From [Limnothrix rosea] IAM M-220 (GTDB taxonomy: Bacteria; Cyanobacteriota; Cyanobacteriia; Cyanobacteriales; MRBY01), in contig NZ_MRBY01000042.1 of assembly GCF_001904615.1 (NCBI RefSeq), forward strand, positions 1 through 35,355: a DNA stretch of 35,355 nt, in the 5' to 3' direction. Position numbers and translations under genes: made by a program. The notes beneath the pieces are model-generated. The model did no database searches and was not told where the DNA came from. It saw nothing but the letters and a program-made list of their open reading frames with translations. This document shows, piece by piece, positions 3,620 through 11,314 of this stretch; within the stretch, counting starts at the first letter, position 1; each line of letters opens with the position of its first letter.

Positions 3620-3661
3620 GTCACACCGTAAATGTCGGCTAACGCAAGAGTAGGGAAAACT

Positions 3662-4297
3662 GTGACATCCCATCGTATTTTGGCGGTTATTAACGGGAAA
3701 GGTGGCGTCGGCAAAACGACAACAGCGGTCAATCTCTCGGCAATTTTTGCAGAAAAACAGCGAGTACTACTGGTCGATAGCGATCCCCAAGGCTCAGCGG
3801 CTTGGTGGGTAGATCGCAATCCAGAGAAATGGAACATTGACATTAGTACTGAGAAAAAACCTGAGGCCTTAAAAAATTTACGGCAAGTAGAGGGCTATGA
3901 CTTAATTGTGGTTGATACTCCGCCGGCGCTGCGTTCCCAAGCTTTAAAGGCTGTCTTACTGACCGCAGATTCTGTTATTTTGCCAACGCCGCCCGCGCCA
4001 ATGGATCTCAGTGCCCTCATTGAAACGGTGCAAAAGGCCATTAAACCAGTTGGTGTGCAGCATCGCGTTTTACTCACGAAAGTCGATAGTCGGAGCTTGC
4101 GGGAGAGCATTGATGCCCAAAATACGCTAATCGAACTGGGTATTCCTGTGTGTCATGCCTTTGTACGAGCCTACAAGGCTCATGAACAAGCTGTCTTGGC
4201 AGGCGTACCTATCAGTCAGATGCGTGGTAAAAAGACTAAAGACGCAGAAACCGATTACCGTCGTGTCGCGGACGAATTGCAACGGGATTGGACATAG
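3662..4297 (+). CDS. ParA-type Walker ATPase, candidate McdA (carboxysome positioning)
   Basis: This is a deviant-Walker ATPase of the ParA/MinD family, which binds nucleoid DNA in the ATP state and positions cargo. With the GTG start the protein is 211 residues. The Walker A motif KGGVGKTT has the signature lysine at 13 and the P-loop lysine at 18. A' (DSDPQGSA) and the Walker B-like VVDTPP segment follow. An in-frame ATG at 3632 would add 10 residues, but GTG 3662 has a well-spaced AGGG and fits the -10 box. No parB follows. Instead, 17 bases downstream is a coiled-coil gene whose last residues are IGWFD. An orphan ParA next to a small coiled-coil protein with a C-terminal tryptophan matches type 2 McdA/McdB. 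A chromosome-partition or other cargo-specific ParA is the alternative. Confidence 0.85.
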
Positions 4298-4314
4298 TAT
4301 TAATGAGGGACGTT

Positions 4315-4926
4315 ATGGCGAGCAGTAAGCAGAATTTATCCGATTTACTTCGAGAGGAAGTCAAACAAGAGGCGACTGACAAGCCTGAAACGAAGACCCA
4401 ACCTAAGGCGACAAAGAAGGTTGAATTGCCAGCGCAACCCTCGGCGACGGCGCTTTCCCGCATGACCAAAGCCCAGCTTTTAGAGCACATTAAATTACTA
4501 CAAAATCAGCAGCCAAGTTCTGCGACGACTCCTGACCCGCAAGCCGAAAAAATTGAAGCTAAAAATCAAGAATTAGCGAAACAGGTGAAGGCTCTAGAGG
4601 ATAAAATCTCAACTCAAGAAAAGGCGATCGCCGACGCAGAGAAAACCATTAAAACCCTCAAAACAGATTCTGCGGAAAAAACCAAGCTCGAAAAAGAATT
4701 AATAAAGCAACAGGGTTTGGTGGAAAAACTCTATGCCCAAGTGCAAGTTCTCGAAGCAGAAACAACCAAACCGGAACCTGAGCCGGAACCAGTTAACGAA
4801 GAGCGGACAATTGAGGAAGATCGAGCTTTAGTTTTAGCGCGAATTTCCAGTTACCAAGCAAATTTACAGTTTCCCTCGCAACCTGCTTCTAGCATCCCTG
4901 AGGAGGATATTGGCTGGTTCGATTAG
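4315..4926 (+). CDS. Coiled-coil protein, candidate McdB (carboxysome positioning adaptor)
   Basis: A 203-residue charged protein. The N-terminal motif NLSDLLREE is followed by a disordered K/E/P/Q-rich part (about 15-90), a heptad-rich coiled coil (about 90-155), an acidic PEPEPEPV linker, and a C-terminus ending EEDIGWFD with tryptophan at position 201. McdB proteins link carboxysomes to McdA; they are described as disordered/coiled-coil and carry an invariant tryptophan near the C-terminus (family knowledge). The ATG at 4315 is chosen because GAGGG ends five bases upstream; TTG 4288 and ATG 4303 are in-frame alternatives, and TTG 4288 would overlap the ATPase gene. It is 17 bases after the ATPase gene, so the two are almost certainly one operon. 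No sequence enzyme motif is visible. It could instead be an unrelated ParA partner. Confidence 0.8.
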   Translation: MASSKQNLSDLLREEVKQEATDKPETKTQPKATKKVELPAQPSATALSRMTKAQLLEHIKLLQNQQPSSATTPDPQAEKIEAKNQELAKQVKALEDKISTQEKAIADAEKTIKTLKTDSAEKTKLEKELIKQQGLVEKLYAQVQVLEAETTKPEPEPEPVNEERTIEEDRALVLARISSYQANLQFPSQPASSIPEEDIGWFD

Positions 4927-5008: not shown

Positions 5009-5944
5009 ATGTTTAAACGCTTTTTGTATGGAGCTTTGGCGGTCATGCTGTCCTTTGCCCTAACTTTCACTCCAGCTGATGAGGCTTGGGCAGCGCGTAG
5101 TGGCGGCAGAATTGGTGGTGGCTCCTTCCGTAGTGCGCCTAGCCGCAGTTTCTCCCCTGCTCCTACTCGTCAGGCTCCTGTGGGTGGCGGTTATGGCTAT
5201 GGTGGTGGCTTCGGTTTTCCTTTCCTCCTACCATTCTTTGGCTTCGGCGGGTTTAGCGGTATCTTCGGTCTCTTCTTTATGTTGGCGATCGCCGGATTTT
5301 TAGTCCGTACTTTCCAGGGTGTACTGGGTGGAGGTGCAGAAAGCGGAGACAGTGTGGGTTATTCGGCACCGTCTAGCCAAATTTCTGTGGCAAAAGTGCA
5401 GGTGGGTTTGTTGGCACAGGCACGGGATTTGCAAAAAGATTTAGATAGATTAGCAGCAACGGCTGACACTGGCACCCAAGCTGGTCGCGCCAAGGTTTTA
5501 CAGGAAACTACTTTAGCGCTACTGCGTAATCCTGAATATTGGGTTTATGGTGCGGCAGACGCGGCAAAATTAGGGGTTGATGCAGCGGAATCTACGTTTA
5601 ATCAATTAGCTCTCGGTGAACGCAGTAAGTTCACGGCGGAAACTCTAACGAACGTCAACAACGAGCGTAATGTTCCGGCGAGTAGCGACCGTGCTGACCT
5701 TGTGAAGGCTGACCAAGGTAATAACGAGTACATTATGGTCACGATTATTGCTGGGGCACTCGGCAAGATCGATTTACCGAAAATTAATGATTCTCAGAAT
5801 CTTGAACAAGCCATCCGTCAAATTGGTGCTCTCGGTGGCGATCGCCTCGTTGCTCTAGAGATTCTCTGGACTCCCCAAGCAGAAGGTGACACCCTCAGTA
5901 CCGATGATATTTTGACCTATTACCCTGACATCAAACTCGTCTAA
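5009..5944 (+). CDS. DUF1517 family exported or membrane protein
   Basis: A 311-residue protein. An N-terminal signal sequence (MFKRFLYGALAVMLSFALTF, with likely cleavage after DEAWA near residue 28) is followed by an RSGGRIGGGSFRSAPSRSF stretch rich in Arg, Gly and Ser. Then come a Gly/Phe-rich segment and one strong hydrophobic helix (about residues 75-105). The soluble C-terminal domain (about 125-311) is the DUF1517 region, which is conserved in cyanobacteria and plants; its function is unknown to me. Residues 26-75 are strongly biased in composition. It has its own upstream region of about 80 bases after the coiled-coil gene and ends at a terminator, so it is probably a separate transcript. 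Confidence 0.85.
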   Translation: MFKRFLYGALAVMLSFALTFTPADEAWAARSGGRIGGGSFRSAPSRSFSPAPTRQAPVGGGYGYGGGFGFPFLLPFFGFGGFSGIFGLFFMLAIAGFLVRTFQGVLGGGAESGDSVGYSAPSSQISVAKVQVGLLAQARDLQKDLDRLAATADTGTQAGRAKVLQETTLALLRNPEYWVYGAADAAKLGVDAAESTFNQLALGERSKFTAETLTNVNNERNVPASSDRADLVKADQGNNEYIMVTIIAGALGKIDLPKINDSQNLEQAIRQIGALGGDRLVALEILWTPQAEGDTLSTDDILTYYPDIKLV

Positions 5945-7576: not shown

Positions 7577-10276
7577 CTAATTCAACATTGGCGCTGAATC
7601 AGGAGTTGTCGTCACTCCGCCACTGGTTTGGTGACCATTGGTCGAATTTACAGGCTCATCAATCGGATTCCGTTCCTCAATCATGGCGATCGCCCGATTA
7701 ACACTTTCGGGGAAGATCACAACCAAAGAACCCTTTGGCGCACCATCGAGAGCAACATTTACAGCCCGACGCTCATCGAGAATCGTTTCATGGCGACAAT
7801 CAGGACTCTGTTGGCGAATGCCTTCAATAATTAAAGCAGCAGCTTCACCATCAGCTCGACCCCGCTTATCATCATCTTCTTTAACAATAATCTGGTCGAA
7901 CACATCAGCAGCAATCTTACCGAGCAAAATTAGATCTTCATCGCGGCGATCGCCGGGGCCACCCACAACACCAATACGCTGACCCTCCCAATTTTTCACA
8001 AACGCACCAACCGCTTCGTAGCCCGCAGGATTATGGGCATAGTCAATCAAAGCATGATGTTCACCAAGATTAAACAAATTCATCCGACCCGGCGTTTGAT
8101 CCGCCGAAGGCTTAAAGGTACGCAAACCCTGACGAATATGCTCAATATCAACACCCTGAGCAAAAGCCGCCAAACAAGCCGCCAAAGCATTCGCGATCAT
8201 AAAAGGAGCCATACCACCCATCGTCACAGGAGCATTTTTGGCCGACTCGACCCGTAGCTTCCACTCCCCTTCGCAAATCGTGATAAAACCATTTTCATAA
8301 ATCGCAGCTAAACCACCACGACGGACATGCTCCAACACAATCGGATTATCCGGCTGCATAGAAAAATACGTGACTTTACCCCGGACTTTCTCAGCCATCG
8401 CTGACACCAGAGGATCATCCGCATTAAGGACCGCATAACCATCAGGAGCCACCGTCTCTGCAATAACCCCTTTTACCTGTGCCATCTGCTCAATGGTATT
8501 AATATCTCCCAAACCAAGGTGATCAGCCGCCACATTGAGCACAACCCCAACATCACAACGATCAAAAGCCAAACCTGCTCTGAGAATGCCGCCCCGGGCA
8601 GATTCGAGCACCGCCACTTCTACCGTCGGATCCTGCAAAATCATTGCCGCACTCTGGGGGCCAGTATTATCACCACCTTGGGCAAGATAATCCCCGATAT
8701 ACACACCATCGGTGCTGGTGTAGCCGACAACTTTACCCGTTTGGCGATAAATATGAGCTGTTAAACGCGTTGTTGTGGTTTTACCGTTTGTACCAGTCAG
8801 AGCAACAATGGGAATGCGGCTAGGAGTATCGTTGGGATAGAGCATATCCATCACTGGAGCCGCAACATTACGCGGTAGGCCACGGCTGGGGGCAACATGC
8901 ATCCGGAATCCCGGCGCAGCATTCACTTCCACAATCACACCATCTGTTTCTGGTAAAGGCTTCGTGATGTCTTCCGTTACGACATCAATACCGGCAATAT
9001 CTAGACCAATAATCTTGGCAACCCGCTCAAACAACCAAATATTGTAGGGATGAATATCATCAGTACGATCAATCGCAATACCGCCAGTACTGAGATTTGC
9101 CGTCGCCCGCAAATAGGCCATTTCGCCATCACGCAAAACAGTGTCTAGAGAAATGCCTTGGCAATCTAAAACTTTTAATGCCGTTTGATCCACCACAATG
9201 CGCGTCAAAACATTGTCATGACCGTCACCGCGATTTGGGTCGCGATTGATTTCCTCAATCAACTCTTCCACGGTTTTTCGACCATCACCCACCACATGGG
9301 CAGGCACGCGTTGGGCAACGGCTGTTAATTTGCCATTAATCACCAGCACACGGTGGTCACTACCGCGATAATAGCGCTCGATAATCACAGAACGCGTTTT
9401 GGAGGCTTCACTGGCTAGGTCGTAGGCAATTTCTGCGTCTTCCCAAGCTTTGATATCAATTGTGATACCTCGACCATGGTTACCGTCGAGGGGCTTGATC
9501 ACAATGGGATAACCGCCCACATCTTCGATGGCATCTTCTAGGTCGTCGAGATAACGGATGACAACACCGCGGGGAACAGGCACACCGGCATCAGCCAATA
9601 TATTTTTTGTGCCTTCTTTATCGCAGGCTAGTTCCACAGCCAAAATGCTGGATTTGTCGCTGAGGGTCGCTTGGATACGTTTCTGGTGAACGCCATAGCC
9701 TAGCTGAATCATGGCTCTAGCGCTGAGCATTGACCAGGGAATCCCCCTGGCTTCTGCTTCTTTGACAATGGTTTCGGTACTGGGGCCGAGGGCTGAGCCG
9801 GCTTTAAGATCCCTGAGGTCTGCGAGGTCTTGTTCTAGTTCTTCCTTTGGATAGCGTCCGGTATCAAGGATTGATTGACAGAGACGAACGGCTGCCCGGC
9901 CTGCGTAGCGTCCAGCTTGTTCGTATACATATTCAAAGACAACGTTGTAAACGCCTGCATCGCCAGTCATACGGGTGCGACCAAAACCGACGGGCATGCC
10001 CGCGAGTTCTTGGAGTTCGAGGGCGACATGCTCAACGATGTGTCCCATTAGTGTGCCTTCGCGAACACGGCTAAAAAAACCTCCACGACAGCCGGGCGAG
10101 CAGTAGTGTTCTACTAAACTGGGCAAGGTATCGCTTAACGCTTCATAGAAACCATCGAGCTCATTAGATGGTGTTTCCGCAATTTCTTCGAGATCGAGCC
10201 GCATGACGATTAATTTTTTGCGTCGAATACTCCAGTAGTTGGGGCCTCGAAGGGTTAGGGTTTTAAGGATTCTCAT
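7577..10276 (-). CDS. cphA: Cyanophycin synthetase
   Basis: This enzyme builds the nitrogen and carbon reserve polymer cyanophycin (multi-L-arginyl-poly-L-aspartate) without a ribosome, using two ATP-dependent activities. The 899-residue length is normal for CphA1. The order is an N-terminal domain starting MRILKTLTLRGPNYW, an ATP-grasp domain (about 220-480) with GYPIVIKPLDGNHGRGI, then a Mur-ligase-like domain with the P-loop GTNGKTTTTR near residue 495 and the downstream GGPGDRRDEDL segment. The start ATG at 10274-10276 is well supported by homology. Cyanophycinase lies just upstream on the same strand with a 198-base gap, the usual cphB-cphA order; the gap is long enough for a second promoter. 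I saw no perfect NtcA site (GTA-N8-TAC) in the upstream regions read by eye. Confidence 0.97.
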   Translation of the reverse strand: MRILKTLTLRGPNYWSIRRKKLIVMRLDLEEIAETPSNELDGFYEALSDTLPSLVEHYCSPGCRGGFFSRVREGTLMGHIVEHVALELQELAGMPVGFGRTRMTGDAGVYNVVFEYVYEQAGRYAGRAAVRLCQSILDTGRYPKEELEQDLADLRDLKAGSALGPSTETIVKEAEARGIPWSMLSARAMIQLGYGVHQKRIQATLSDKSSILAVELACDKEGTKNILADAGVPVPRGVVIRYLDDLEDAIEDVGGYPIVIKPLDGNHGRGITIDIKAWEDAEIAYDLASEASKTRSVIIERYYRGSDHRVLVINGKLTAVAQRVPAHVVGDGRKTVEELIEEINRDPNRGDGHDNVLTRIVVDQTALKVLDCQGISLDTVLRDGEMAYLRATANLSTGGIAIDRTDDIHPYNIWLFERVAKIIGLDIAGIDVVTEDITKPLPETDGVIVEVNAAPGFRMHVAPSRGLPRNVAAPVMDMLYPNDTPSRIPIVALTGTNGKTTTTRLTAHIYRQTGKVVGYTSTDGVYIGDYLAQGGDNTGPQSAAMILQDPTVEVAVLESARGGILRAGLAFDRCDVGVVLNVAADHLGLGDINTIEQMAQVKGVIAETVAPDGYAVLNADDPLVSAMAEKVRGKVTYFSMQPDNPIVLEHVRRGGLAAIYENGFITICEGEWKLRVESAKNAPVTMGGMAPFMIANALAACLAAFAQGVDIEHIRQGLRTFKPSADQTPGRMNLFNLGEHHALIDYAHNPAGYEAVGAFVKNWEGQRIGVVGGPGDRRDEDLILLGKIAADVFDQIIVKEDDDKRGRADGEAAALIIEGIRQQSPDCRHETILDERRAVNVALDGAPKGSLVVIFPESVNRAIAMIEERNPIDEPVNSTNGHQTSGGVTTTPDSAPMLN

Positions 10277-10474: not shown

Positions 10475-11314
10475 TTAAAGGTTTCCGGACATTGGCCGTT
10501 GCTGCTGGATGTCATAGCGATCGCCGTGACAAAGGACATGTAAATGGAGACCATGGAGACTGAGTGGCTCTGTCGTATCAGCCTTGGCTTGGTTTGTGTG
10601 ACTCATTTCGCGAGCATCAACAATGGTGACTGTGCCACGACCCAGTACCTGAAGATAACCTTCCCGCTCAAATACAGCGCAGGTATCTTCATCGATGCCA
10701 ATACCCAAGCGATCAGGATGGACGGCAATGGTACTCAGGAGACGTGCCATGCGATTTCTATTGTGAAAGTGCTGGTCGACAATAATTTCAGGAATCATAC
10801 CTAAACCCATCGCAAGATCCACTAAGCCTCGGTTGGGAGATTCACCACTACTGCCCCCTGCAATCATATGGTGTCCCATGACCGCAGCTCCGGCGCTCGT
10901 GCCAGCGAGGGCAATTTCACCATCATGAACCCTTTGGCGAATACGTTCCATTAAGGGCGTATCTGACAGTAAACCACATAGCCTTAGTTGGTCTCCACCG
11001 GTCATGAAAACGCCGGTGCACCCTTCAACAAATTCTTGGTAATAACGGTCTTCTGCATGGACGCGATCACGCACATCCAACACTTTAACCTTGCTAGCAC
11101 CCATATCCTCAAAGATACGTTGGTAGCGATCGCCAATCAGGAGGGGTTCCCGTGAAGCGGAGGGAATAATGGCAATGGCAGCATCAGTACCACCAGAACG
11201 GCGGACAAAAGACGATAAAATCTCTTTCCCATGCACCTTGTCCTCAGCGCCACCGATGACAAGAATAGAACTCTGGGTAGAAATTTGATTAGAAAGGGTG
11301 GTTTCTGATGGCAT
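10475..11314 (-). CDS. cphB: Cyanophycinase
   Basis: This serine-type exopeptidase (peptidase family S51) cuts cyanophycin to beta-Asp-Arg dipeptides. The 279-residue product has GGDQ at 106-109 and the nucleophile elbow GTSAGAAVMGHHM, with the catalytic serine at residue 140. The N-terminal segment SSILVIGGAEDKVHGKEIL is characteristic. It starts at ATG 11312-11314 and is followed on the same strand by cphA. It is divergent from trmD across 231 bases. Since cphB and cphA share direction and order with other cyanobacteria, they are probably cotranscribed, at least in part. Confidence 0.96.
   Translation of the reverse strand: MPSETTLSNQISTQSSILVIGGAEDKVHGKEILSSFVRRSGGTDAAIAIIPSASREPLLIGDRYQRIFEDMGASKVKVLDVRDRVHAEDRYYQEFVEGCTGVFMTGGDQLRLCGLLSDTPLMERIRQRVHDGEIALAGTSAGAAVMGHHMIAGGSSGESPNRGLVDLAMGLGMIPEIIVDQHFHNRNRMARLLSTIAVHPDRLGIGIDEDTCAVFEREGYLQVLGRGTVTIVDAREMSHTNQAKADTTEPLSLHGLHLHVLCHGDRYDIQQQRPMSGNL

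Follow-up and report, generated by a model that had tools for sequence, protein, structure and literature searches.

Two adjoining genes on the forward strand occupy positions 3662–4926 of the window, by which we mean the whole 35,355-nucleotide stretch of DNA analysed (contig C44 of a 4.07-Mb host genome in 92 contigs). The upstream gene (3662..4297, +), which we designate mcdA (beta type 2), starts with GTG and encodes a 211-residue ParA-type ATPase that matches Pfam AAA_31 (1.7e-22) and CbiA, both above cut-off, has KGGVGKTT with the signature lysine as its Walker A motif, and lacks a mid-protein extension. An alternative, longer ATG start lies at 3632; orthologues from the same genus are 211 residues long from MAS in four of five cases, the first start in the fifth being further upstream. 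Seventeen bases separate this gene from the ATG (4315) of the second, mcdB (4315..4926, +), designated as the beta type 2 adaptor from its motifs, a family profile and its predicted fold. Its 203-residue product starts MASSKQNLSDLLREE and ends EEDIGWFD, with a single tryptophan, W201, and its last residues, SIPEEDIGWFD, place tryptophan and acidic residues within the final ten. The N-terminus, MASSKQNLSDLLREEVKQEA, is charged, with three basic and four acidic residues in 20. Codons 1–20 (4315..4374, +; K5, R13, K17) are the likely McdA-binding N-terminus, as judged by motif conservation and, for function, by analogy with Halothiobacillus McdB, and codons 196–203 (EEDIGWFD; 4900..4923, +) are the likely carboxysome-docking tail, as judged by conservation and by what PMC11321042 reports of function. 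In all of these particulars (coordinates, spacing, signature lysine, 203-residue partner, N-terminal NLSDLLREE, and C-terminal EEDIGWFD with its tryptophan third from the end) the sequence-only reading that had proposed a type 2 McdA/McdB pair was accurate.

The next gene downstream (5009..5944, +) was assigned to DUF1517 by Pfam on the window copy; a similar frame follows mcdB, by eye, in all five other genomes of the genus, and we do not hold it to be part of the McdAB system. Further along the window, on the reverse strand, adjoining cyanophycin synthetase-like and cyanophycinase-like genes were recognized by eye at 7577–10276 and 10475–11314.

Among 40 genomes searched, mcdA and mcdB are both kept, and adjacent, in the five others of the same genus, with 83–93% identity to the window protein for McdA and 61–77% for McdB (66% for the McdB of PCC 7117), and the NLSDLLR stretch and IGWFD end of McdB are invariant in all six genus members. 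Plasmid stretches that are 100% identical over 10 kb identify two of these genomes, G002 and G003, as those of Picosynechococcus PCC 7003 and PCC 7117. Differences between the window and L003 fall mostly at third codon positions, being 22, 5 and 101 at the first, second and third positions over the 211 codons of the ParA gene and 38, 22 and 98 over the 203 codons of mcdB. Conservation of both frames in all five genomes, together with this distribution, marks the gene pair as more than a chance arrangement. Three further matches in the 40-genome search were weak: one (L008) adjoins a McdA in G019 and the other two (L009, L010) had E of about 1e-3.

A cyanobacterial family and its partner protein

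A search of the contigs of 84,980 species with a six-row ParA alignment yielded at least 583 stretches and at least 484 relatives, of which we took the best 80 of 484, a set that may omit genomes very near the window. These best 80 have 61–71% identity and are by title cyanobacterial, save L060. The ten-residue signature-lysine motif is present in 79 of the 80 orthologue matches; in the remaining one, which must be L118, the match begins past the motif and the full frame contains it. A downstream frame with the N-terminal motif occurs in 78 of these 80 loci, and 77 of the 78 partners have their final tryptophan at the third (42) or fourth (35) position from the C-terminus, the N-terminal motif having served to choose partner frames and the tail tryptophan not. 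The one exception (L092) is a frame that runs off the motif, for which a frameshift is suspected, and the two loci of the best 80 without such a partner are both from Microcystis (L071 and L072). Two main classes could be distinguished among the tails of the 78 partners, GWxD in 32 versus WLL, WLLD or WLYD in 41; the latter appeared by eye to belong mostly to Nostoc-like and other filamentous genomes.

Two side observations concern this set and the host. L060 derives from a metagenome-assembled genome (SU_1_2) labelled Gracilibacteria and carries an ordinary cyanobacterial mcdAB pair; its contig is probably mis-binned. Downstream of a plasmid-type ParA on another contig of the host genome (L017, G000:C2) lies a 93-residue frame that begins MSKRKKLDDILGNFEED, like the N-terminal motif of McdB, and is unlike McdB in the rest, so that this partner and McdB N-termini may perhaps have a ParA-binding helix in common.

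The partner gene had been expected to be easily left as 'hypothetical', and indeed neither NCBIfam nor Pfam gave the window McdB any family match near cut-off, for which reason we built a family profile from 48 of the 78 partners, none of them from the genus of the window, leaving out L092 and thinning 29 close relatives by eye. Searching 1102 stop-to-stop frames from the window, the loci of its own genome and those of the same genus (hmmsearch), this profile matched the window protein with 56.8 bits (E 2.3e-16), and the best other frame, once same-genus orthologues and overlapping window copies were set aside, scored 14.5 bits (bias 94.8). An HMM search of the kind suggested by the sequence-only reading finds the protein, with the proviso that the match is to a profile built here from family partners, and to published features, rather than to a characterised type 2 McdB sequence. 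In control runs the protein as read scored 57.4 bits, the best of 300 shuffles 1.4, the reversed sequence −2.2, the core alone 27.0, a version with the ends kept and the core shuffled 4.8, and rotated copies 39.1–50.0, so that the score does not reflect composition and a good part of it comes from the coiled-coil core and not from the ends alone. A profile–profile comparison gave a probability of 99.3, with both ends aligned. When genome contigs were searched with the McdB profile, both in the host genome and in the wider set, the window locus was omitted; because direct hmmsearch with the same alignment finds the window protein, we ascribe this to the first look of that contig search, whose negatives we treat as unreliable and from which we claim no absence. 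Five weak PDB matches to the McdB profile, the best being UspA1 (E 0.0032), were set aside as chance coiled-coil matches.

An AlphaFold2 monomer model of the window McdB, obtained from 30 aligned McdBs (mean pLDDT 77.3, pTM 0.39), places helices at residues 8–21 (including NLSDLLREE), 52–64, 75–151 and 166–182, followed by a loose tail. Block means of pLDDT are 95–98 from residue 81 to 150 in the central helix and 61–65 at the two ends, with values under 50 at residues 22–39. The model fits the published central coiled coil and surrounding disorder. The coiled coil and disordered segment proposed from the sequence are in this respect borne out by the predicted central helix and the low-confidence stretch, the weaker part being the heptad pattern itself, which is modest (225 of 5000 shuffles of residues 76–150 were equally good). 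Glutamine enrichment of the centre is weak, with 19 glutamines among the 203 residues and 8 among the 75 of the central helix.

Association with carboxysome genes

The host has Rubisco, with rbcL, ccmM, ccmN and rbcX on contig C30 above NCBIfam cut-offs, and six BMC-domain matches: C30 and C6 carry two each, and a single frame on C59 holds the other two. We take these BMC genes to be ccmK-like from their domain and position. By sequence the carboxysome gene set reads as beta type and unlinked to the mcdAB pair: no Rubisco large chain or BMC domain was found in the window, those of the host lying on C30, C59 and C6, and tblastn with the proteins encoded in the carboxysome region of C30 found nothing in the window. 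The co-occurrence of the pair with carboxysome genes in the genome, and its distance from any such gene in the window, both of which the sequence-only reading had raised, are therefore borne out.

In 10 of the best 80 of 484 loci, for which flanks of up to 3 kb were covered, BMC genes lie 1.1–1.9 kb downstream of mcdB. All ten are by title from Nostoc and close kin, a single lineage, and because they are related they count as few events. Nine of the ten have two tandem BMC genes, the second being nearest to a C6 gene of the window genome (73–88% identity).

A stronger sign of a link to carboxysomes than these ccmK-like neighbours is the joint decay of mcdA with Rubisco and shell genes. G377, G406 and G565 are reduced genomes of one genus (2.8–3.1 Mb, compared with 4.8 Mb for G371 of the same genus) and, given their reduced size and kinship, are probably diatom spheroid bodies; such diatom endosymbionts have, according to PMC12903740, lost carbon fixation and carboxysome proteins. 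In all three, rbcL contains internal stops, the BMC matches (one, two and one, respectively) are partial or interrupted by a stop, and mcdA is interrupted by stops, its Walker A motif being damaged as well (L180–L182). mcdB is broken in two of them and open in G565, where the tail reads IWWFD, and the next frame downstream, of 219 codons, is open in all three. In G371, rbcL is intact, six intact BMC matches are present, and mcdA and mcdB are both intact. Two other genomes bear on this association. In G603, rbcL and six BMC matches are present, and no McdA was obtained at 1e-40 in a search that also misses true loci. In G638 rbcL is intact and BMC matches are absent; its McdA-like match scores 169.7 bits, less than the orthologues do, and is either a paralogue or a counter-example.

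Identity of the pair, alternatives and known systems

We regard it as highly probable that the window pair is a beta-McdAB type 2 carboxysome-positioning system, the type 2 McdA/McdB reading being supported by the motifs, the family profile, the orthology and the lack of any better pair in the genome. An AAA_31 search of the host genome gave 16 matches in 14 ParA-like genes, and the window pair is the only one of these whose partner has a tryptophan in its last four residues. On contig C3, the partner of the ParA is 102 residues long, with a tryptophan seventh from the end and without the N-terminal motif, and for two other genes (L012 and L023) our script, within its limits, gave no downstream frame. 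The McdB HMM matches the window protein and none of the 13 other ParA-like genes showed such a partner, in line with the sequence-only reading, for which a blank HMM search together with a stronger pair elsewhere in the genome would have counted against the assignment.

That the locus might instead be a partition parA, of a plasmid or the chromosome, with an unusual centromere-binding partner appears to us exceedingly improbable. The best NCBIfam model for the window ParA is indeed a ParA_partition family, matched under its cut-off (123.9 versus 180 bits), and in a 39-row tree (25 of the 80 McdA orthologues, six genus members including the window, six of the 13 other ParA-like proteins of the host and two plasmid ParAs) the PCC 7117 plasmid ParA L151 falls among McdA rows, on a very long branch. 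The six genus proteins form one branch in this tree with 100/100 support; because long and weak branches lie deep in it, we give preference to profile scores. Scored with a profile built from the 80 McdA orthologues, the window ParA reaches 355.6 bits and its same-genus orthologues 354.9–363.1, as against 113.8 for the PCC 7117 plasmid ParA and at most 77.9 for any other ParA of the host, which argues against the grouping with chromosome-partition ParA proteins that the earlier reading had named as a reason to abandon it. Moreover, the partner matched neither ParB nor another DNA-binding family in NCBIfam and Pfam, and gave no tblastn match among 72,556 plasmid records at E 0.01. The stated lack of parB likewise holds for the whole genome, in which the sole ParB_N match, on contig C29, is below cut-off.

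Very unlikely too, if slightly less so, is that the genes form a ParA–adaptor pair positioning some other cargo, for instance a different condensate or a protein cluster, and that the tail is McdB-like and nothing further. ParA–adaptor pairs in general have N-terminal basic helices and coiled coils, carboxysome genes are not near the pair in the genus of the window, and G638 has the McdA-like protein yet no BMC match. Against these points stand the tail tryptophan, at the third or fourth position from the C-terminus in 77 of the 78 partners in the best-80 loci, the BMC genes adjoining the pair in 10 of those 80 loci, and the breakage of mcdA along with Rubisco and shell genes in G377, G406 and G565.

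By analogy with the systems studied in other species, McdA bound to ATP would bind the nucleoid and McdB would dock on beta-carboxysomes by its C-terminal tryptophan-acidic tail, its short basic N-terminal helix contacting McdA and its central helix probably driving dimerisation. McdB would then trigger release of McdA from DNA close to each carboxysome, and carboxysomes would move up the McdA gradient in the manner of a Brownian ratchet, with even spacing and inheritance as the outcome. For the window pair itself, DNA binding, McdA–McdB contact, shell binding, dimer formation and movement are all transferred from those species, and what we observe is the pair with its motifs and cyanobacterial orthologues, its linkage to ccmK-like genes within a single lineage, and the decay that it shares with Rubisco and shell genes.

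PMC8262871 and PMC11321042 describe type 2 McdA as keeping the signature lysine and having no extension, and type 2 McdB as having a central coiled coil, the PCC 7002 protein being reported as a dimer; the features given there for beta type 2 McdB include a glutamine-rich centre, an invariant C-terminal tryptophan with acidic residues in the last ten, a charged N-terminus, hydrophobicity and multivalency. The C-terminal tryptophan is, according to PMC11321042, needed for carboxysome association in the two species examined. For the alpha-McdB of Halothiobacillus, PMC12204374 reports that residues 1–20 are necessary and sufficient to bind McdA, which stays on DNA when McdB lacks those first 20 residues. 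The window pair has the same lysine, lack of extension, charged N-terminus, coiled coil and C-terminal tryptophan as the beta type 2 systems, including Synechococcus (Picosynechococcus) PCC 7002 McdB, that are described in PMC8262871. We found no difference from PCC 7002 beta type 2, the comparison being with sequences from PCC 7003 and PCC 7117, which plasmid matches place in this genus. With beta type 1 (Synechococcus elongatus PCC 7942), as described in the same literature, it shares a ParA-type ATPase with an adaptor and a C-terminal tryptophan, but the signature lysine is missing from type 1 McdA, a large extension interrupts the middle of that protein, and the coiled coil of its McdB is predicted to be C-terminal, with tryptophan as the last residue. 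The alpha-McdAB system of Halothiobacillus neapolitanus resembles the window pair in the lysine-bearing N-terminal 20 residues and the tryptophan-acidic tail; however, alpha-McdB is without the coiled coil and terminates in R(V/I)WPD, whereas the window McdB has a long central helix and ends IGWFD. Three PDB entries, 6NON, 6NOO and 6NOP, all of the ParA family and 6NOO named McdA in its record, were rejected as nearest known structures, matching the genus McdA profile with 30.0–33.5 bits over residues ~6–51 only; the best PDB match to that profile is 3CWQ (80.7 bits).

Split pairs and wider meaning

McdA was detected at E ≤1e-40 in 64 of 386 genomes of the phylum. Among these 64, the listed McdB match lies directly downstream in 43 and elsewhere in 16, and five had none among the rows taken, namely G638, the decayed G377 and three of the genus of the window, in which McdB does lie next to McdA. 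For seven of the 16 the McdB match is on the same contig, 0.1–2.9 Mb off. All six of the 16 that we opened (G594, G068, G557, G392, G012 and G555, the last read through G650 with identical coordinates) have a frame with a tryptophan-containing tail and the N-terminal motif, and for the remaining ten the evidence consists of profile matches, some of them partial. The genomes of the two partner-less Microcystis loci, L071 and L072, likewise have McdB-profile matches elsewhere, and in one of these two genomes a full tryptophan-tailed McdB frame was read (L164). Several individual cases may be noted: the McdB match lies 0.13 Mb from mcdA in G594:C1 and 2.1 Mb from it in G293:C1, G293 bears the same genus label as G555, the match coordinates of G555 are those of Microcystis NIES-4325, and both split-pair stretches read (L162 and L164) encode a GWFD tail.

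The first survey of cyanobacterial McdAB is reportedly that of MacCready et al. 2020. Titles and opening passages of the literature gave us no account of split or decayed mcdAB pairs, which could still be in print. Tentatively, as a proposal that we consider possible and less likely to hold than to fail, mcdA and mcdB may lie apart, in Microcystis and several other lineages and by up to megabases, such that surveys confined to the surroundings of mcdA would undercount the system, and the GWxD tails versus the WLL, WLLD or WLYD tails may represent two shell-docking specificities within type 2.

The window pair is an ordinary member of its class, both this kind of system and the type 2 McdB of PCC 7002 having been described before, and what adds something beyond the known system is the decay shared with Rubisco and shell genes, along with the separation of mcdA from mcdB in some genomes. 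For the window, the analysis provides a firm annotation for a gene left unnamed by NCBIfam and Pfam; for the family, two independent routes, the joint decay with Rubisco and shell genes and the ccmK-like neighbours in the Nostoc lineage, tie the type 2 pair to carboxysomes.
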